Positions 9,456 to 35,274 of a stretch of 47,633 nucleotides of DNA are shown here, piece by piece (positions within the stretch are counted from its first letter, which is position 1; the number at the start of each line of letters is the position of its first letter). The DNA comes from Komagataeibacter melomenusus. Its GTDB lineage: Bacteria; Pseudomonadota; Alphaproteobacteria; Acetobacterales; Acetobacteraceae. A program made the position numbers and the translations under genes. The notes under the pieces were generated by a model. That model was not told the DNA's origin. It did no database searches and saw only the letters and a list, made by a program, of their open reading frames with translations. The stretch spans positions 1 through 47,633 of the forward strand of contig NZ_JABJWC010000027.1 in assembly GCF_013155395.1 (NCBI RefSeq). Reading direction: 5' to 3'.

Positions 9456-11390
9456 TCAGCCGCGCTTGCGACGGATATCGGGTGGCAGGGCCTCATATGC
9501 AAGGGCCGAGACCGCTTCTTCCAGCGGCAGCACCTCCTGCGTCTTGCCGCCAAGGCGGCGCATGGCCACGGTGTTTTCCTCCGCTTCCTTGCGGCCCACG
9601 ACCAGGATGACCGGCACGCGCGCCAGGCTGTGCTCGCGAATCTTGGCGTTGATCTTCTCGTTGCGCAGGTCGGCTTCCACCACCAGCCCCGCCGCGCGCA
9701 GGCTGTCGGTCACGTGCTGGGCATAATCGGCCGCATCGGTCACGATCGAGGCCACGACCACCTGGGTCGGCGCCAGCCATAGCGGGAAGCGCCCGGCATG
9801 CTGCTCGATCAGGATGCCGAGGAAGCGCTCGAACGAACCAAGGATGGCCCGGTGCAGCATGACCGGGCGATGGCGCGCGCTGTCCTCGCCCACATAGGAG
9901 GCATCGAGCCGCTCGGGCAGCACGTAATCGACCTGCAGCGTGCCGCACTGCCAGTCACGGCCAATGGCGTCACGCAGCACGAATTCCAGCTTGGGGCCAT
10001 AGAATGCCCCCTCGCCCGGATTGTGCTCATAGGTGACGCCCGCCATGTCGCAGGCCACTTTCAGCGCGTTCTCGGCGCGGTCCCATGTTGCGTCGTCGCC
10101 TGCGCGCTGCTCGGGGCGATCGGCGAATTTGACGCGGAAATGCTCGAAGCCAAGGTCCTGGTACACATCGGCGAGCATGCGCACGAAGCGTGCGGTCTCG
10201 TCGGCGATCTGGTCCTCGGTGCAGAAGATATGCGCATCATCCTGCGTAAAGCCGCGCACGCGCATGATGCCGTGCAACGCCCCCGAGGGCTCGTAGCGGT
10301 GGCAGGCCCCGAATTCCGCCATGCGCAGCGGCAGTTCGCGATACGAGCGCAGCCCGTGGCGGAAGATCTGCACATGGCACGGGCAGTTCATCGGCTTCAG
10401 CGCGAGGGTCTTGTCCTCGTCCTCCACGGTGGCGATGAACATGTGCTCACGGTATTTGTCCCAGTGGCCGGAAGCCTCCCACAGGGCGCGGTCAACGAGT
10501 TGCGGGGTGCGGACTTCCTGGTAGCCGTTGCCGTCCTGCGCGCGGCGCATGTAGTCCTGCAGCACGGTGTACAGCCGCCAGCCCTTGGGGTGCCAGAAGA
10601 TCTGGCCCACGGCTTCTTCCTGAATGTGGAACAGGTCCATCTCGCGGCCAATGCGGCGGTGGTCGCGGCGCTCGGCTTCCTCAAGCTGGTGCAGGTGGGC
10701 CTCAAGCTCCTTGCGGTCGCGCCAGGCGGTGCCGTAGATGCGCGTGAGCATGGGGTTGCGGTGGTCGCCGCGCCAGTAGGCACCCGCCACCTTCATCAGC
10801 TTGAAGGCATGGCCCACATCGGCCGTGCCGCGCAGGTGCGGGCCGCGGCACAGGTCCAGCCACTCGCCCTGGCGGTAGATCGAGATTTCCTCATCCGCCG
10901 GCAGGTCGCGGATCAGTTCGGCCTTGAAGCGCTCGCCCCTGTTCTCGAAGAATTCGATGGCCTTGTCCCGCGGCCACGCCTCGCGCACGAAGGGTTCGTT
11001 GGCGGCCACGATCTCGCCCATGCGCTTTTCGATGGCGGCGAAATCCTCCGGGCTGAACGGCTCGTTGCGATAGAAATCGTAATAGAAACCATTCTCGATC
11101 GACGGGCCGATGGTGACCTGCGTGCCCGGAAAGAGCGACTGCACGGCCTCCGCCAGCACGTGGGCGGCATCGTGGCGGATCATTTCCAGCGCCTCGGGGT
11201 CCTTGCGCGTGATGAAGCGCAGGCTGGCATCATGGTCGATCTCGCGGCCGATATCCATGAGCTTGCCATCCACTTCCATGGCAAGGGCGGCGCGGGCAAG
11301 ACCGGCGCCGATGGACTGCGCCACGGTCGTGCCCGTCACTGCCCCGTCAAAGCGGCGAACGGATCCGTCAGGCAGGGTTATGGCAGGCAT
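9456..11390 (-). CDS. thrS: Threonyl-tRNA synthetase
   Basis: 644 residues, the normal length. N-terminal TGS domain ([13 protein letters not shown]), editing domain with [11 protein letters not shown], class II catalytic core with the zinc-binding cysteine in MNCPCH, motif 2 around [15 protein letters not shown] and motif 3 in [13 protein letters not shown], then an anticodon-binding domain (residues about 535-644). It charges tRNA-Thr and removes mischarged serine. The ATG follows CCGGAGCAATGAAACC. It lies upstream of infC, the common thrS-infC order, but rpmI and rplT are not next to infC here. Confidence 0.96.
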
Positions 11391-11432
11391 GGTTTCATTG
11401 CTCCGGTAAGAAGATACTGCGCTGTAATGGCG

Positions 11433-12335
11433 TCAGCCGCGCGTTGCCGCAACCCTGTCAACGCGCACGGTGGCCAGATCACGCACATAAATCACCCGCA
11501 CCTGCCCTGCCCGCACCCCCACCGGGGCGGTCAGGGCGGGGTTGCTGTCGGCGGAAAACAGCACGGTGCACTTCACCCCAAGGGCGGCTGCCATGTGCAT
11601 GGGGCCGGTATCATTGCCCACCGCCCAGGCCGCGCGGGCCAGCACGCCGCCGAGTTCGAGCAGCGTGGTCCGGCCGGTCAGGTCAAGCGCATCGGGGCAG
11701 GCGTTGCGGATGGTGCAGGCCAGCCCGGCCTCGCCCCCGCCCCCCACCACGACCGGCAGCAGGCCCTGGCCGCGCAGGCGCACGGCAAGGGCTGCATAGC
11801 GTTCTGCCGGCCAGCGCTTGGCCGGGCGGTGGGCGGCAGCACCTGGCACGAGCACCGCATAGGGCGCGGGCAGCACCGGGCCGCCCCGTGCCAGCCATGA
11901 CAGGTCGGGCACGGGCAGGTGCGCGAGTCCCGCCCGCCTGAGCTGGTCGCGCTGGCGGGCGCGGGTATGCATGAAGCGCCGCTGCGGGTTGTCATGCACC
12001 GCCTGCGCGCCGCGCCCGATTCCCGACCACGCCCTGCCGCCCGAAAGATGAAAATAGCGCGTGCTGCGCCCCGAGGTCTGCAGGTCGTAAATGAAGTCAT
12101 ACCCCCGCAGCATGCGCCGCAGCGCCATGATGGCGGCAATGTCGCGCCACGGCGGCCTGCGGTCGAGCAGTACATGGTCGAACCACGGGCAGGCGCGACC
12201 GAGTTCGGCAAAGGGTGCCTGGGTCAGCAGGTCCACTTCATCATGGGCATGATGGGCGCGGATGGCGGCAAACGGGGCAAAGGACTGCACGAAATCGCCC
12301 AGCGCGCCCAGGCGGATGACAAGGATGCGGGCCAT
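11433..12335 (-). CDS. Glycosyltransferase family 9 (heptosyltransferase-like)
   Basis: 300 residues with the GT9 N-terminal motif RILVIRLGALGDFVQS and the C-terminal nucleotide-sugar region (VVVGGGGEAGL, then GNDTGPMHMAAALG). GT9 enzymes transfer heptose from ADP-heptose to lipopolysaccharide inner core, which is the most likely role here, but the exact acceptor cannot be read from sequence. It lies three bases after the TPR gene on the same strand, so the two are probably cotranscribed, and it is near a GT4 gene that is divergent. Confidence 0.85.
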   Translation of the reverse strand: MARILVIRLGALGDFVQSFAPFAAIRAHHAHDEVDLLTQAPFAELGRACPWFDHVLLDRRPPWRDIAAIMALRRMLRGYDFIYDLQTSGRSTRYFHLSGGRAWSGIGRGAQAVHDNPQRRFMHTRARQRDQLRRAGLAHLPVPDLSWLARGGPVLPAPYAVLVPGAAAHRPAKRWPAERYAALAVRLRGQGLLPVVVGGGGEAGLACTIRNACPDALDLTGRTTLLELGGVLARAAWAVGNDTGPMHMAAALGVKCTVLFSADSNPALTAPVGVRAGQVRVIYVRDLATVRVDRVAATRG

Positions 12336-25265: not shown

Positions 25266-27452
25266 TTATTCGCCCGCGGCGGCGCGGCTTTCCCTGGCTT
25301 CCTTCAGCACGGCGGAAAGACGGTCATTACGCAGCCATTCCTCCAGCTTTTCAGGCGGCATGGGGCGGGCGAACAGGTAGCCCTGCACCACGTCGCACCC
25401 AAGCTGGCACAAAAGGTCAAGCTGGCGCACGGTTTCCACGCCTTCGGTCACCACCGTCATGCCAAGGCGGCCGCCAATGCCGATCACCGCCGTGGTCACG
25501 GCCTGGGCGTTGGCATCATGCTCGAGGTTCATGATGAAGCTGCGGTCGATCTTGATCTCGGTCAGCGGCAGGCGCGTCAGCCGCGAGAGCGAGGAGTAGC
25601 CCGTGCCGAAATCATCCATCGACAGGGCCACGCCAAGGTTGCGGATGGACTGGAGGACCATGTTCGTGTCCTCGTTTTCGGTCATCATCACGCTCTCGGT
25701 AATCTCGACCGTCAGGCGATGGGGCTCGAGCTTGCTGTCACTGAGCAGGCGGGCAATGAAGCCGGGCAGGTTGCGGTTGCGGAAATGCCCCGCCGAGAGA
25801 TTGACCGCCACCGTGGGCACGTAAATGCCATGGGCGTCCCATTCGAGAATCTGCCGCACGGCGCGCTCGAGCGACCAGGTGCCGATGGCCTCGATCTGCC
25901 CGGTTTCCTCCGCCACGGCAATGAAGCGCGAGGGGTAGATGTTGCCCAGCGTGGGGTGGTTCCACCGCGACAGCGCCTCCACGCCATACAGCGTGTTGTT
26001 GCGCACGTCGATCTGCGGCTGGTACTGCAGGTTGAGCAGGCCCTGCGCCAGCGATTCACGCAGCGCCGAGCCCAGCAGCAGCCGGTCCTGCGCGGCCTTG
26101 TTGTCTTCCGAGCGCGCAAGGTGGGTCATGCCCAGCCCCGAGCGCTTGGCCTGCCGCATGGCCTGCTCGGCATAGCTGAGCAGGGATTCGCCATCCGGCC
26201 CGTTCTCGGGGAACAGGCTGATGCCGATGCCCAGCGTCGGCACGATCATGTTGCCGCCGATCTCGATGGGCTGCTTGACGCAGCCATGCAGGGTATCGGC
26301 GAATTTGAGCGCTTCTTCCCGGCGCGTGTTGGGCACGATGATCAGGAACTCGTTCGGGCCGGACCGGCTGAGCACATAATTGCTGCGCGACACGCCCTTG
26401 AGCCGCTCGGAAACGGATTTCAGGAAGCCATCGCCATTGATATGGCCCAGCGCATCGTTGATATCGCGGAAGCGGTCGATATCGATCATGTACAGCGCGA
26501 AGTGATTATCCCCCGGCTGGCCAATCAGCGAGCGGATGACCTTGTGCACCGCCGTGCGGTTGAGGAAGCCGGTCAGCGGATCGTAGTTCGACAGCTGCGA
26601 GATATGCTGGCGCGCCTCATGCTGCTCGATCAGCACGCCACAGAACGGCACGCAGCTGTTCACGATCTGCGCGGGCCAGCTGCCACGGTTGCGCTCGGAG
26701 CGCGAATACAGCGCGAAGATGCCGGTAATGCGCCCGTTGCGCGTGCGGATGGCCGAGGCCCAGCAATGGTGCAGCCCCAGCGAGATGCCAACCGAGCGGT
26801 AGCTGTCCCACACGATGGTCGTCGCCTCGTTGAGGTCATTGGCCAGGGCTGCGATATCGGCCTCGGTCAGGCGCATGTCTTCAAGGGCTGCGGCAAAGCG
26901 GCGCGGCATGCCGGGGCCGGACAGGATGCGCAGGCGGCTCTGCTCATCAAGCAGGATCAGCACGGCAACCGTATTGGGCACCAGTGTCTCGACCTCGCGG
27001 CAGACCATGTCCGCCACGTCCTGGATCTGGATCTCGCTCGACAGCGAGCGGAACACCGTATTCTGCAGTTCGACCACCCGGCTGCGATGGCCCGCGCCGG
27101 TAATGCCATGCACCATCATCAGCCGGTAGCGCCGCCCGTCAGCCCCCACCTGCGCCGCCGTCAGGCTGACCTCGGCGGAGATGTAGTCCCCGCTGCGGTT
27201 CTCGAACGTCACCTCCCCCGACACCGGCTCAACCGCCTGGATCGAGGCGTTGATGTCAAAGGGGGCAGCCCCGTTCTCCACCGATGCAGCCATGAGTTCC
27301 CCCACGGGCCGCCCCGCCAGCGTGCCAGGGTCGTAACCCCATAACGTCTCGGCTGCCGGGTTGGCATAGAGGATCATGTTGTGGTCATCGATGATGACCA
27401 TGCCATCATGCGCCTGATGCAGCAGTTCAAAACTGATCTCAGGAATGGCCAC
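25266..27452 (-). CDS. PAS-GAF-GGDEF(degenerate)-EAL cyclic-di-GMP phosphodiesterase
   Basis: 728 residues from a GTG at 27452. PAS domain about 8-125, GAF-like domain about 135-280, GGDEF domain about 290-450 with GPNEF at 365-369 in place of GGDEF, and EAL domain about 465-715 with EAL at 492-494, the DDFGTGYSS loop, KIDRSF and TEGVET all intact. The sequence is therefore a probable c-di-GMP hydrolase with a non-synthesizing GGDEF domain. It is paralogous along its whole length to the next gene, but its PAS domain lacks the haem-ligand histidine (GAAPFD at that place). The GTG has no ribosome site; an ATG at 27489 is out of frame by one base because of a nine-C run. Genes of this type control cellulose synthesis in Komagataeibacter. 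Confidence 0.88.
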   Translation of the reverse strand: MAIPEISFELLHQAHDGMVIIDDHNMILYANPAAETLWGYDPGTLAGRPVGELMAASVENGAAPFDINASIQAVEPVSGEVTFENRSGDYISAEVSLTAAQVGADGRRYRLMMVHGITGAGHRSRVVELQNTVFRSLSSEIQIQDVADMVCREVETLVPNTVAVLILLDEQSRLRILSGPGMPRRFAAALEDMRLTEADIAALANDLNEATTIVWDSYRSVGISLGLHHCWASAIRTRNGRITGIFALYSRSERNRGSWPAQIVNSCVPFCGVLIEQHEARQHISQLSNYDPLTGFLNRTAVHKVIRSLIGQPGDNHFALYMIDIDRFRDINDALGHINGDGFLKSVSERLKGVSRSNYVLSRSGPNEFLIIVPNTRREEALKFADTLHGCVKQPIEIGGNMIVPTLGIGISLFPENGPDGESLLSYAEQAMRQAKRSGLGMTHLARSEDNKAAQDRLLLGSALRESLAQGLLNLQYQPQIDVRNNTLYGVEALSRWNHPTLGNIYPSRFIAVAEETGQIEAIGTWSLERAVRQILEWDAHGIYVPTVAVNLSAGHFRNRNLPGFIARLLSDSKLEPHRLTVEITESVMMTENEDTNMVLQSIRNLGVALSMDDFGTGYSSLSRLTRLPLTEIKIDRSFIMNLEHDANAQAVTTAVIGIGGRLGMTVVTEGVETVRQLDLLCQLGCDVVQGYLFARPMPPEKLEEWLRNDRLSAVLKEARESRAAAGE

Positions 27453-27465
27453 AACAGCTGGCGAA

Positions 27466-27474
27466 GGGGGGGGG
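27466..27474. repeat. Run of nine G (C9 on the coding strand)
   Basis: A nine-base homopolymer 13 bases upstream of the assigned GTG of the EAL gene. With eight C the upstream ATG at 27489 would be in frame with the EAL protein; with nine it stops after 15 codons. Candidate slipped-strand site or a sequencing-length error. Confidence 0.8.
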
Positions 27475-27563
27475 ATTCTGCGTTTTCATAGGGATCCAAG
27501 GTTAAGCAGGCCTGTTTCCAACCAGGCATGGGAACAGCGAACAAGCCAGGAATTGTGGCGGCA

Positions 27564-29843
27564 CTATTTCTTCGTTTTGCTTTCAACCGCATCAGAGGCG
27601 ACCAGTTCGAGCGCAAGGGTCTTGGCCGGTCCCTGCGACCATTCAAGCAGTTCCGCCGGCGGCATCGGCCGCGCGAACAGATAGCCCTGCACCACATCGC
27701 AGTTCAGCTCCTGCAGCAGCTTGAGCTGGGCCTCGGTCTCGACACCTTCGGTCACGACGGTCATGCCCAGGCGGTTGCCGATGCCGATCACCGCCGTGGT
27801 CACGGCCTGGGCGTTGGGATCATGGTCAAGGTTCATGATGAAGCTGCGGTCGATCTTGATCTCGGTCAGCGGCAGGCGCGTCAGCCGCGAGAGCGAGGAG
27901 TAGCCCGTGCCGAAATCATCCATCGACAGACCAACGCCGAGGTTGCGGATGGCGGCGAGCCCTTCCATCGTGTCCTCGTTTTCGTCCATCATCACGCTTT
28001 CCGTAATTTCCACGCACAGGCGCTCCGGCGAGATCTGGCGCTCCTTGAGGATGCGCTCGATCAGCGCGGGCAGCCCGCGATTGCGGAAATGGGCGGCCGA
28101 CAGGTTGACCGATACGGTCGGCACGTAAAGCCCGGCGCGCTCCCAGTCGAGGATCTGCCTGGTCGCCTCTTCGAGCGACCAGGTGCCGATCGTCTCGATC
28201 TGCCCGGTATCCTCCGCCACCGCGATGAAGCGCGAGGGGTAGATGTTGCCCAGCGTCGGGTGCTTCCACCGCGAGAGCGCCTCAACGCCATACAGCTTGC
28301 CGGTCTTGATATCGACCTGCGGCTGGTAATGCAGGTTGAGCATGCCCTTGGCCAGCGACTCACGCAGCGCCGAGCCCAGCAGCAGCCGGTCCTGGGCGGC
28401 ACGGTTATCAGCCGTACTGGACACGCAGTAGCCGCCGCGCGCCTCCTTCTTGCACCGGCGCATGGCAATCTCGGCATGGCCCAGCAGGGATTCGCCATCC
28501 GGCCCGTTTTCAGGGAACAGGCTGATACCGATGCCAAGGGAGACGACGAGCAGGTTGCCCGCGATCTCGATGGGTTCCTGCATGGCCTTGATCAGGCTCT
28601 CGGCAAAGTTCGCGGCCTTGGCTTCATCACTGTCGGGCATGACGATGACGAACTCATCCCCGCCCGACCGGCTGAGGATGTAATTGCTGCGCGACAGGTC
28701 CTTGAGCCGCTGGGCCACCGCCTTGAGGAAGGCATCGCCATTCATGTGGCCAAGCGTGTCGTTGATATCGCGGAAGCGGTCGATATCGATCATGAACACC
28801 GCGAACTCGTTATCACCCGGGCGGTCGATCATCGACTTGATGACCTTGTGGATGGCGGTGCGGTTGTGGAAGCCGGTCAGGGAGTCATGGTTGGCGAGCT
28901 GGGCAATGTGCTGCTGCGCCTCATAGTTCTCGATCACCACGCTACAGAAGGGCACGCAGCCCGACACGATCTTCTGCGGCCAGTCGCTCAGCTTGTACTG
29001 GTTGCGCGAATACAGCGCGAAAATGCCCGAAATGCGCCCGTTGCGCGATTTGATGGCCGAAGCCCAGCAGTTGTGCAGCCCCAGCGAGATGCCCAGCGAG
29101 CGGTAGCTGTCCCACACGATGCTGTTGGCTTCCGACAGGTCATTGCCCAGCGCCGCAAGGTCGCCCTCGGTCAGGGCCATGTTCTCGAGTGCCGCAGCAT
29201 AACGGCGCGGCAGGCCGGGACCGGACAGGATGCTCAGGCGGTTGTTCTCATCAAGCAGGATGATGGCCGAGACCGTGTTGGGCACGAAGCTTTCCACCTC
29301 GCGGCAGACCAGGTCGGCCACGTCTTCGACCAGCATGTCGTTGGAGATGGCCTGGAACACCGTATTCTGCAGGTCGAGCAGCTTGCGGCGGTGGCTCTCC
29401 TCGGTCACGCCTTTCATGAAGGCCATGTAATAGCGCTTCTTTTCCGGGCCGAGCAGCGCGGTCGAGATCGACATCTCGCCCGAGATGTAGTCACCCGCCT
29501 TGTTCTCGAACGTCACCTCGCGCGAGGTGCCGACAATGCGGTTCACGCCCGTCTTGCGGTTTTTATAGATATAGCTGTCATGATCGCCACGATAGACCGA
29601 TGGCACGAGGCAGCTCACGTTGCGGCCGAGCACTTCATCCTCGGAATAGCCCCACAGCTTCTCGGCCGCCGGGTTGAAAAAGACCACCTCGTTGCGTTCA
29701 TTGATGATGACCACGCCATCCGTCGCCTGCTCGAGCAACTGGAGGCTGACATCGGCGGTCATGTCGAGTTCACGGCTCGGGGTCTGTTCAGACGTCATCG
29801 CGGGGGCATCGTGAGGGTTCATTACATGCTCTTGCTGTTTCAT
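27564..29843 (-). CDS. DosP-like PAS(haem)-GAF-GGDEF-EAL bifunctional cyclic-di-GMP enzyme
   Basis: 759 residues. PAS domain about 33-150, GAF-like about 165-310, GGDEF about 320-475 with GGDEF intact at 394-398, EAL about 495-745 with EAL at 521-523, DDFGTGYSS, KIDRSF and TEGVET intact. The PAS aligns with E. coli DosP: NEVVFFNPAAEKLWGY matches its NDEVMFFNPAAEKLWGY. His88 sits where DosP has the haem ligand His77; at the DosP distal Met95 position there is Thr106, so a five-coordinate, gas-binding haem is plausible, as in K. xylinus PDEA1. The inhibitory I-site (RxxD) is not present. The start is ATG 29843; an in-frame ATG at 29822 is an alternative. It is 17 bases after the MHYT gene. Confidence 0.9.
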   Translation of the reverse strand: MKQQEHVMNPHDAPAMTSEQTPSRELDMTADVSLQLLEQATDGVVIINERNEVVFFNPAAEKLWGYSEDEVLGRNVSCLVPSVYRGDHDSYIYKNRKTGVNRIVGTSREVTFENKAGDYISGEMSISTALLGPEKKRYYMAFMKGVTEESHRRKLLDLQNTVFQAISNDMLVEDVADLVCREVESFVPNTVSAIILLDENNRLSILSGPGLPRRYAAALENMALTEGDLAALGNDLSEANSIVWDSYRSLGISLGLHNCWASAIKSRNGRISGIFALYSRNQYKLSDWPQKIVSGCVPFCSVVIENYEAQQHIAQLANHDSLTGFHNRTAIHKVIKSMIDRPGDNEFAVFMIDIDRFRDINDTLGHMNGDAFLKAVAQRLKDLSRSNYILSRSGGDEFVIVMPDSDEAKAANFAESLIKAMQEPIEIAGNLLVVSLGIGISLFPENGPDGESLLGHAEIAMRRCKKEARGGYCVSSTADNRAAQDRLLLGSALRESLAKGMLNLHYQPQVDIKTGKLYGVEALSRWKHPTLGNIYPSRFIAVAEDTGQIETIGTWSLEEATRQILDWERAGLYVPTVSVNLSAAHFRNRGLPALIERILKERQISPERLCVEITESVMMDENEDTMEGLAAIRNLGVGLSMDDFGTGYSSLSRLTRLPLTEIKIDRSFIMNLDHDPNAQAVTTAVIGIGNRLGMTVVTEGVETEAQLKLLQELNCDVVQGYLFARPMPPAELLEWSQGPAKTLALELVASDAVESKTKK

Positions 29844-33555: not shown

Positions 33556-34080
33556 ATGACCAGACTCGCCACCCTTCCCCTCTCAGACCTCATCGTCGTG
33601 CCTGACCTGCTCGCTGCACCGGTCGGCACCGTGATGCTCGCCTCGGAAGTCTCGCGTGATGACCAGAAGATCGTCATCCGCAGCCGCCTTGTCGGCCCCG
33701 ATGGCAGCGCAACGCCGGGCCTGATCCTGATGGCGACGGATGTACGCGGCTATTTCGTGCCTGATGCAGCCTGCACCGCCTTCGTGCGCACGGCCATTGA
33801 CGTCACCGCCGCCATGCCCCTGCTGCTGACCAAGATCGTGCCGGGCTTCCGCTACAAATATGACGCCGTGGTGCGCGGCGATGTGTGGCAACTCAAGGAT
33901 GCGCAGGGCAAGCCGTTCACCGGCCTTGCCATTGGCTCGTCGGATGAGGAAGAAAGCAAGGTCTTCGCCTATGCCCGCATCGACGGCGGCCGGATTGGCG
34001 ATATCGTGCCCGGCGAGCGCGTGGCCTATCTGGGGCTGCTTGATTTCGGGGCAGGCCCGGCCGTGCCCACGCTGGGCTGA
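33556..34080 (+). CDS. Protein of unknown function
   Basis: 174 residues, no signal peptide and no recognised domain. Beta-rich with regularly spaced hydrophobic strands (VGTVMLASEVSR, DQKIVIRSRLVG, GLILMATDVRGYFV, KYDAVVRGDVWQL, VFAYARIDGGRIGDIVPG). GGAGAATG lies nine bases before the ATG. It is alone on the plus strand, convergent with the di-iron gene and separated from it by a strong hairpin. Confidence 0.6.
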   Translation: MTRLATLPLSDLIVVPDLLAAPVGTVMLASEVSRDDQKIVIRSRLVGPDGSATPGLILMATDVRGYFVPDAACTAFVRTAIDVTAAMPLLLTKIVPGFRYKYDAVVRGDVWQLKDAQGKPFTGLAIGSSDEEESKVFAYARIDGGRIGDIVPGERVAYLGLLDFGAGPAVPTLG

Positions 34081-34091
34081 ACCCGCTTCTT

Positions 34092-34118
34092 CCCCCGCCT
34101 GCGCCAGACAGGCGGGGG
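34092..34118. terminator. GC hairpin between convergent genes
   Basis: CCCCCGCCTG and CAGGCGGGGG form perfect ten-base arms around seven bases, 11 bases after the stop of the unknown gene and 20 bases before the end of the di-iron gene. Lacks a T run but the location fits a shared terminator. Confidence 0.65.
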
Positions 34119-34138
34119 GGGGCGGTTACGGCAGCGGG

Positions 34139-35143
34139 TTATGCCGCGCCGGGCTGGCTTTCAAGGCTGGCCGAATTGGGCGTGCGCGGCAGGAAGAAGC
34201 GGATGATGCGCGCCAGGTTGGGCGCAAGCTTCGGCCGCACCAGGCGCGGGTCATAGCCCGAGAAGCGGCGCGCATTCTCGATCAGGCAGATATCGATCAT
34301 GTCGCGCAGCTTCACATCCACATCGGCCACTTCCTTCGTGCCGTTGACGGTGAAGTTGTTATCCTGCTCGTGCTTGTTGCCATCGGCATCGAACGTGGTG
34401 ACCATGCCCAGACGCTCATAGAGCAGGAAGAACCAGACACCGAGCACGCGCGCCTCGAACCACGGGCGCTTCCACCACGGCATGGTGGCGCGGTGCCAGG
34501 CCAGCCAGTTGGCGAACAGCAGGATGTGGCGGCATTCCTCCTGCATCACCGGCTCGAACGTGTCGATCAGCGCGGGCGGGAAGAAGGCGGATTTCTGGGC
34601 AATGGCAAACAGGCCGAAGGCGAAGAAGCTGTCCACGCATTCCGAAAAGCCGGTGACCATATAGGCCCATTCCACATCGCGCGGCTCGATGTAGGGCGGC
34701 TCGGACGCCAGCGGAATGTTGTAGGCCGCCACCATCTTGGACAGCACTTCCTTGTGGCGGTTCTCCTCCCACGCATTGCGTGACAGGGCATCCTTCATGT
34801 CGGGGTCGTCGATCAGGCGGGCGTAGGCAGCCATGCGCAGGCGGGCCTTGCCTTCGGTCTGGACCGCGATGTCCCAGATCGGCAGGGAGGTGACGCGCTG
34901 CAGCGTCTCGGCATCGAGTTCGGGCCATTCGATGACGGATGGCTTGTAGGGGTTGAAGGTCTCGCGGAACATGTCCGCCACGGCCTTCTTGTGCGCAGGC
35001 GAGCCCGGCTTGAGGGGACCTGCAACCGGGCTGGACCAGTGCCGCGCATTGAAATCGGCCTTCGCCACGGCATCCGCCGTGGCGGCACCTGGATCACGGG
35101 CTTCAGGCAGGGTTGTATAAATGTCAGAAAGTGATTTCGTCAT
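34139..35143 (-). CDS. Ferritin-like di-iron protein (six ligands conserved)
   Basis: 334 residues. The helical bundle contains a full set of candidate di-iron ligands: Glu98, then ENRH (Glu127, His130), Glu168 and EECRH (Glu203, His206). This E, ExxH, E, ExxH pattern matches ferritin-like oxidases, acyl-carrier desaturases and related oxygenases rather than storage ferritins. The protein is much longer than a ferritin. Substrate unknown. ATG 35143 (MTKSLSD) is preferred, but the frame is open to an ATG at 35200. It has no operon partner and is on the same strand as clpP upstream. Confidence 0.72.
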   Translation of the reverse strand: MTKSLSDIYTTLPEARDPGAATADAVAKADFNARHWSSPVAGPLKPGSPAHKKAVADMFRETFNPYKPSVIEWPELDAETLQRVTSLPIWDIAVQTEGKARLRMAAYARLIDDPDMKDALSRNAWEENRHKEVLSKMVAAYNIPLASEPPYIEPRDVEWAYMVTGFSECVDSFFAFGLFAIAQKSAFFPPALIDTFEPVMQEECRHILLFANWLAWHRATMPWWKRPWFEARVLGVWFFLLYERLGMVTTFDADGNKHEQDNNFTVNGTKEVADVDVKLRDMIDICLIENARRFSGYDPRLVRPKLAPNLARIIRFFLPRTPNSASLESQPGAA

Positions 35144-35274
35144 GTCGGCTCGCTGTTCGGAACGGTGTCGCGTGAATACGCCGGCCGATGAGGCGTTCAT
35201 TCAAACTGCCTGACACCCTCGTTGCCGGTTCCCATATCATAAGTCCATGCAAAGTGCAGGACTGTTATCAGGAC

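Follow-up and report, generated by a model that had tools for sequence, protein, structure and literature searches.

Three consecutive GGDEF-EAL genes, called P3, P1 and P2, are located on the minus strand of the window, i.e. the whole 47,633-nucleotide stretch of Komagataeibacter melomenusus DNA that was analysed (contig NZ_JABJWC010000027.1). P1 and P2 are paralogues in which selection guards different domains, the sensor in P1 and the hydrolase in P2. Residues, conservation, synteny and reversed selective constraint support a division of labour between the two proteins. Taken as a whole, the reading that P3 is a cyclase, P1 a haem-PAS phosphodiesterase of the AxPDEA1 kind and P2 a haem-free phosphodiesterase appears rather probable to us.

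P3 (29861..31945, minus strand) codes for a 694-residue protein with Pfam matches for MHYT, GGDEF and EAL, predicted to be a diguanylate cyclase with a degenerate EAL domain. It is separated by 17 nt from P1 (27564..29843, minus strand), whose 759-residue product has a PAS-GAF-like-GGDEF-EAL architecture and is predicted to be an O2-regulated haem-PAS c-di-GMP phosphodiesterase of the PdeA1/DosP type. P2 (25266..27452, minus strand; 728 residues as an open frame) has the same architecture with GPNEF in place of GGDEF. It is devoid of the haem motif and is predicted to be a phosphodiesterase only. P2 begins 111 nt after P1 if counted from the GTG that opens its frame and 74 nt after P1 if counted from a conserved ATG (see below). 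The three genes probably constitute an operon for a cyclase, a haem phosphodiesterase and a haem-free phosphodiesterase, presumably transcribed together. A scan for promoters and terminators returned 1 and 3 sites, respectively, vs 2.3 and 5.7 in shuffled sequences, and it is neutral on this point. P1 has the MHYT gene and an amidohydrolase gene among its neighbours. Its closest named relatives, and those of P2, are found in K. xylinus and K. nataicola, and the genome itself contains 16 EAL matches. A 353-residue protein encoded at window positions 34139-35200 is also conserved beside the locus (82-97% identity where matched), with no Pfam match at E 0.001.

P1 and P2 align over 705 residues with 65% identity, in line with the earlier note, which had described an adjacent pair aligning from end to end. 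Identity amounts to 38% in the PAS domain, 67% in the middle region, 64% in the GGDEF domain and 79% in the EAL domain. The PAS-GAF-GGDEF-EAL architecture proposed in that note holds for the PAS, GGDEF and EAL domains, which Pfam detects in both proteins. No Pfam match to GAF was obtained in either of them, and we write 'GAF-like' because that label stands on fold alone: phytochrome PAS-GAF structures appear within the best 50 Foldseek matches, with poor superposition of the two domains. The best Foldseek match of both N-terminal models is DosP.

The PAS domain of P1 (residues 36-150; 29394..29738, minus strand), supported by alignment, AlphaFold and Foldseek, harbours His88, Thr106 and Arg108, which align with His77, Met95 and Arg97 of DosP. 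In the available parts of PMC4263535, His77 is described as the haem ligand, Met95 as the sixth ligand that is displaced by O2, and Arg97 as the O2-binding residue. At these three positions P2 has Ala, Val and Gly, and its loop is three residues shorter. Thus, the His in the F helix that characterizes haem PAS domains of the FixL/DosP type (PMC10468136, in excerpt) is present in P1 but replaced by Ala in P2, and the distal Arg for O2 (DosP Arg97) is present as Arg108 in P1 but replaced by Gly in P2. The P1 PAS domain matches the haem PAS of DosP with an E value of 2e-25 and that of FixL with 6e-16; the E value of the P2 PAS domain with DosP is 8e-8. In the AlphaFold model of the N-terminal part of P1 (pLDDT 88.5), a helix spans residues 82-98 and contains His88, whereas the corresponding stretch of the P2 model (84.1) is mostly coil, with some residues under 50. 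For the P1 model, the best 50 Foldseek matches include haem PAS domains of DosP and FixL as isolated structures; none is present among the best 50 of the P2 model. In the PAS domain of P1, His88 would thus bind the haem, with no Met opposite (Thr106) and with Arg108 for O2. The residue correspondences that had led to its description as DosP-like stand, but Thr106 makes P1 AxPDEA1-like instead.

The catalytic domains of the pair also diverge. All eight EAL catalytic positions (E-N-E-D-D-K-E-Q), which we take to be those of RocR-type EAL domains, are occupied as expected in both P1 and P2. For cyclases, we took a GGDEF or GGEEF motif together with the metal Asp to be required, assuming the positions of PleD. 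Both features are found in P1, whose GGDEF lies at residues 394-398 (28650..28664, minus strand), and in P3; P2 lacks this combination and has GPNEF at the aligned position (residues 365-369; 26346..26360, minus strand), activity being a prediction in each case. The full set of PdeA1-type features, i.e. the PAS His/Thr/Arg, GGDEF and a complete EAL, is thus present in P1, whereas P2 lacks those of the PAS and GGDEF domains.

This split is conserved across the genus. We designate named loci by L and genomes by G; the two sets share some genomes, and their counts are not additive. Adjacent P1 and P2 genes occur in 16 of 19 genomes of the genus; in G060 and G124, P1 occurs without P2, and both genes are missing from G128, whose one match at E <= 1e-200 is 52% identical and of the PdeA type. 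P1 has the haem motif and GGDEF in all 16 pair genomes, and P2 has GPNEF or GSNEF in all 16 and the full His/Thr/Arg set in none. Among the named loci, the 12 P1 rows all retain His/Thr/Arg and GGDEF; the complete His/Thr/Arg set is absent from every one of the 12 P2 rows, which read GPNEF or GSNEF throughout and have a loop shortened by 3-5 residues. The eight EAL catalytic residues are retained in 11/11 complete P2 rows (L009 is cut). Across the genus, 17 of 18 P1-type genes keep GGDEF (those of the 16 pair genomes and L062); the exception is L061, one of the two P1-only orthologues, with GADEF. Individual P2 sequences have a His within the shortened loop, in L004 (one of the 12 rows) and in L054 and L056 (two of the 16 pair genomes), and an Arg occurs at the position of Arg108 in P2 of L002/L050.

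Single-copy relatives provide a point of comparison. In the genus of G073 (Novacetimonas group), all four genomes have a single gene at this locus, with His/Thr/Arg kept and GANEF. In the four named loci of this type, three from Novacetimonas and one from a Gluconacetobacter entanii record, a cytochrome b561 gene precedes the single gene, and there is no MHYT gene. In G060 and G124, the P1-type gene lies directly before the amidohydrolase gene with P2 absent, and the haem motif is kept in both. Single copies at this locus thus carry the haem motif in 6/6 genomes, and the motif-free copy stands beside a motif-bearing one in 16/16. This pattern is independent of the tree described below, although one loss event may lie behind it. 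In L039 (G060; ~10256-12246), the MHYT-type neighbour of the single P1-type gene matches in two pieces and looks split; that of G124 matches in one piece.

We determined dN/dS values by domain for the same seven species in P1 and P2 (the window, L003-L007 and L010), leaving aside the close L001, L002, L008 and L012 and the cut L009; the bootstrap intervals were obtained from resampled columns and ignore the shared ancestry of pairs. For the PAS domain, dN/dS is 0.024 in P1 and 0.196 in P2 (ratio 8.4, bootstrap 3.6-28), and for the EAL domain the order is reversed, with 0.081 in P1 and 0.034 in P2 (ratio 0.41, 0.20-0.83). The middle region gives 0.020 and 0.077, respectively. The GGDEF domain, with 0.086 in P1 and 0.054 in P2, shows no clear difference (P2/P1 ratio 0.64, 0.28-1.41). 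The single Novacetimonas-type gene has values of 0.077 for PAS and 0.135 for EAL. In the C91 paralogues, encoded elsewhere in the genome, PAS dN/dS is 0.276 where the motif is disrupted and 0.136 where it is kept (0.217 if L020 and L024 are included), and it is 0.252 in the SADEF clade, which keeps the His. Relaxed PAS evolution alone is therefore no proof of haem loss, as it is also found in paralogues that keep the His. What is telling is how strictly the PAS of P1 is kept and that constraint crosses over between the PAS and EAL domains. The claim that a haem-sensor site is present in P1 and not in P2 is thus upheld by the residues, by the 16/16 pair genomes and by opposite constraint, haem binding itself being predicted.

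In the mechanism that we propose, P3 would make c-di-GMP as a diguanylate cyclase. In P1, His88 would carry the haem, with Thr106 instead of Met, and Arg108 would stabilize bound O2. By analogy with AxPDEA1, O2 would lower the phosphodiesterase activity of P1, and therefore more c-di-GMP would be available to cellulose synthase in air. As the position of the DosP Met is occupied by Thr106, P1 is expected to be AxPDEA1-like, with an O2 effect opposite in sign to that on DosP. P2 would be an old duplicate that lost its cyclase site, and then its haem site in a lineage keeping P1 alongside; it retains a strongly constrained EAL domain, and its phosphodiesterase activity would be constant or set by a partner. 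In this scheme, haem and O2 binding, the direction of O2 control, transcription as an operon, enzyme activity and the hetero-oligomer considered next are the parts that we infer. Among the literature matches listed, none reports on haem, activity or interactions of P1 or P2.

The reciprocal constraint, with a slow PAS and a faster EAL in P1 and the reverse in P2, would also fit a hetero-oligomer with O2 sensing mainly by the P1 subunit and catalysis mainly by the P2 subunit. The two genes are adjacent in 16/16 genomes having both, and there is a precedent in Kosakonia, where PAS domains of a haem-binding and a non-binding cyclase encoded next to the cellulose operon are described as binding each other (PMC13141831, in excerpt). 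Nevertheless, the EAL domain of P1 has its full catalytic set and continues to evolve under purifying selection (0.081), the PAS domain of P2 is so variable that there may be no conserved interface, and interaction data are absent from the literature matches listed. We thus consider such a partition between subunits conceivable but unlikely.

The earlier note had also proposed that P1 both makes and breaks c-di-GMP. P1 retains every cyclase residue checked, namely the metal Asp, Asn, Asp, Lys, Arg and the GGDEF motif, and it may therefore have kept cyclase activity. As a prediction of bifunctionality this is weak, because the PdeA1 orthologue shares the haem motif and the intact GGDEF, yet it is described as an O2-inhibited phosphodiesterase (PMC6667682, PMC4646962 and PMC8846402, each in part). 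That orthologue belongs to locus L034 of the same genome, which by Pfam is the cdg1 operon, with CRP, PdeA-type, Dgc-type and Rrf2 genes; the gene content of cdg1 in the available parts of PMC6667682 and PMC4646962 is the same. The orthologue agrees with P1 in His/Thr/Arg and in the intact GGDEF residues. A truly bifunctional P1, in which O2 would switch between synthesis and hydrolysis with P2 as a fixed phosphodiesterase, could account for the complete residue set and for its conservation in 17/18 P1-type genes, but the GGDEF domain of P1 is no more constrained than that of P2, its RxxD site reads R..Y, and a separate cyclase-type gene lies 17 nt upstream. We regard this reading as doubtful, and bifunctionality is probably not the main role of P1. 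The companion claim, that P2 is a phosphodiesterase without cyclase activity, fared well as a prediction, with GPNEF or GSNEF in 16/16 pair genomes and the EAL set complete.

P3 is probably a better candidate than P1 for the diguanylate cyclase of the operon, judging from its residues. Its GGDEF motif is intact, and its EAL domain has D2 replaced by E and E3 by Q; across 13/13 P3-type rows of the locus (P3, L001-L010, L012 and L039), E3 is always Q and D2 always a residue other than D. The MHYT partner at the C91 locus has a complete EAL set, and EAL degeneracy is therefore no rule for MHYT partners. This second MHYT-type gene of the genome is followed by a PAS-GGDEF-EAL gene (L030:1807-6143). 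In the K. xylinus group, the C91 paralogue has a disrupted PAS haem motif and Asn at the metal Asp despite an intact GGDEF. Another paralogue of the same genome (L035, C58) lies near a contig start and has a TAA stop inside the matched stretch. We discarded the notion that two GGDEF states equal two enzyme types, an intact GGDEF being common in the paralogue group and occurring in the C91 paralogues together with Asn at the metal Asp. We also discarded the absence of an Arg towards the end of the GGDEF domain as the mark of a dead cyclase, as the Dgc-type L032, L033 and L034 are without it in the alignment as well. Section 29 of PMC6528568 counts GGDEF/EAL proteins and is silent on haem residues.

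A tree of the middle-GGDEF-EAL part was built with the motif columns removed, leaving out L042 and L043 (copies of L024 and L017), L036, L037 and DosP. The Novacetimonas-type gene groups with P2 (99/95). Fixed sites common to two groups vs the third number 35 for P2 and Novacetimonas, 27 for P1 and P2 and 19 for P1 and Novacetimonas, and those that are derived, i.e. absent from 24 other paralogue rows, number 4, 0 and 0, respectively. One of the four is the Asp-to-Asn change in GGDEF. In AU tests with groups named after the tree had been seen, a younger duplication within Komagataeibacter was not rejected (p 0.105), and the grouping of Novacetimonas with P1 was marginally rejected (p 0.046). 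The likely sequence is thus a duplication before the split of the genera, loss of the cyclase site of P2 and then loss of haem in the Komagataeibacter lineage keeping P1. Because of the p value of 0.105, 'cyclase first, haem second' is likely, not proven. A tandem duplication within Komagataeibacter is disfavoured.

The start of P2 in this assembly deserves comment. The GTG at 27452 is where the first start codon occurs in the open frame; an ATG at 27487..27489 (minus strand) is the conserved one. In relatives, this ATG follows a conserved TTGGAT and opens a frame of 738-742 residues, and it is in frame in 26/26 rows (some rows share genomes, and two stop at 648, where the contig ends). In the window its frame is only 16 codons long, because a nine-C run at 27466..27474 (minus strand) within the N-terminal codons of P2 puts the ATG out of frame with the rest of the gene. 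The run may be a sequencing error, a fixed frameshift or a length-variable tract, and translation of P2 in this assembly may not begin at the conserved ATG. Tracts of at least nine C or G give 33 overlapping matches at 21 places of the genome, far fewer than the ~222 expected from the base composition of the window alone. None of the literature matches listed deals with such tracts in Komagataeibacter. Another nine-base run (G on the plus strand) is present at 34114-34122 of the window, between open frames 33556-34080 (plus) and 34139-35200 (minus).

P2 could be seen as a decaying spare copy, redundant after duplication, with no division of labour and already frameshifted in this strain. Its relaxed PAS and out-of-frame start would agree with this, as would the comparable PAS decay that the C91 paralogue shows in the K. 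xylinus group and the ~40% of FixL/DosP-type PAS sequences reported to be without the His (PMC10468136, in excerpt). However, the EAL domain of P2, with a dN/dS of 0.034, is more constrained than that of P1, its eight catalytic residues are kept in all complete rows, the gene is retained in 16/19 genomes of the genus, and its start is in frame in all rows from relatives. Decay therefore seems improbable. We think it no likelier that the PAS domain of P2 senses another ligand or a redox cofactor: the PAS fold is kept in the P2 model outside the loop, and His loss in this group may reflect a change of specificity according to the same excerpt of PMC10468136, but the stretch replacing the F helix varies among P2 orthologues and, read by eye, contains no Trp, so that P2 lacks the F-helix Trp given there as the criterion for FAD. 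Equally improbable, in our opinion, is a two-part enzyme, with P1 as the sensor and P2 as the catalyst of a hetero-oligomer, a haem-free copy tolerated here only beside a haem copy, and a C run that lets single lineages switch P2 off.

The preferred reading, with P1 as a haem-PAS phosphodiesterase and P2 as its haem-free counterpart, bears on the question of why bacteria keep many near-identical c-di-GMP enzymes. The tandem pair offers a measurable case of opposite constraint on sensor and catalytic domains, and since the single-copy relatives are natural controls, sensor loss after duplication becomes directly testable. P1 would also represent a further probable O2-sensing phosphodiesterase besides PdeA1 in bacteria employed for cellulose production.

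Among known systems, PdeA1 (AxPDEA1 of the K. xylinus cdg1 operon) has in common with P1 the PAS, GGDEF and EAL domains, the His/Thr/Arg residues and the intact GGDEF, and its orthologue in the genome analysed here shares 56% identity with P1 across 728 columns. Their settings differ, as PdeA1 sits with CRP/FNR, Dgc1 and Rrf2 genes, and P1 with an MHYT-type gene and a twin free of the haem motif. Escherichia coli DosP is matched by P1 over the full protein with an E value of 2e-131. DosP has a second PAS domain. Its GGDEF is degenerate in the alignment, unlike that of P1. DosP (PdeO) resembles P1 as a haem-PAS phosphodiesterase encoded beside a cyclase gene, in dosCP (PMC8846402, in part), but it has Met95 as the sixth ligand and is described as O2-activated (PMC4263535, in part), with Thr106 in P1. 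Both P1 (647.8) and P2 (568.5) fall below the cut-off of 857 of the DosP equivalog NCBIfam NF008467; with the Met absent as well, P1 was rejected as a DosP orthologue. After DosP, the next solved protein matched by the PAS domain of P1 is FixL. The haem PAS of FixL contains His and Arg but no Met. Its output is a histidine kinase, unlike that of P1. The proportion of FixL/DosP-type PAS sequences without the His given above (PMC10468136, in excerpt) means that His loss itself is common.

The Kosakonia proteins KoBdcA, KoBdcB and KoBpdA are the other relevant set: three PAS c-di-GMP proteins linked to cellulose and O2, one of which is reported not to bind hemin. In the available part of PMC13141831, a haem cyclase, an accessory PAS cyclase not binding hemin and a haem phosphodiesterase act on cellulose. 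That non-binder is a cyclase with its own GGDEF, and the proteins are described as membrane proteins encoded beside the bcs operon (PMC13141831, same part). No paper on the P1/P2 pair is among the literature matches listed. Within these matches, what seems new relative to the systems above is that the two members of one duplicated tandem pair are split in a conserved manner, with constraint reversed between them and single-copy relatives as controls.
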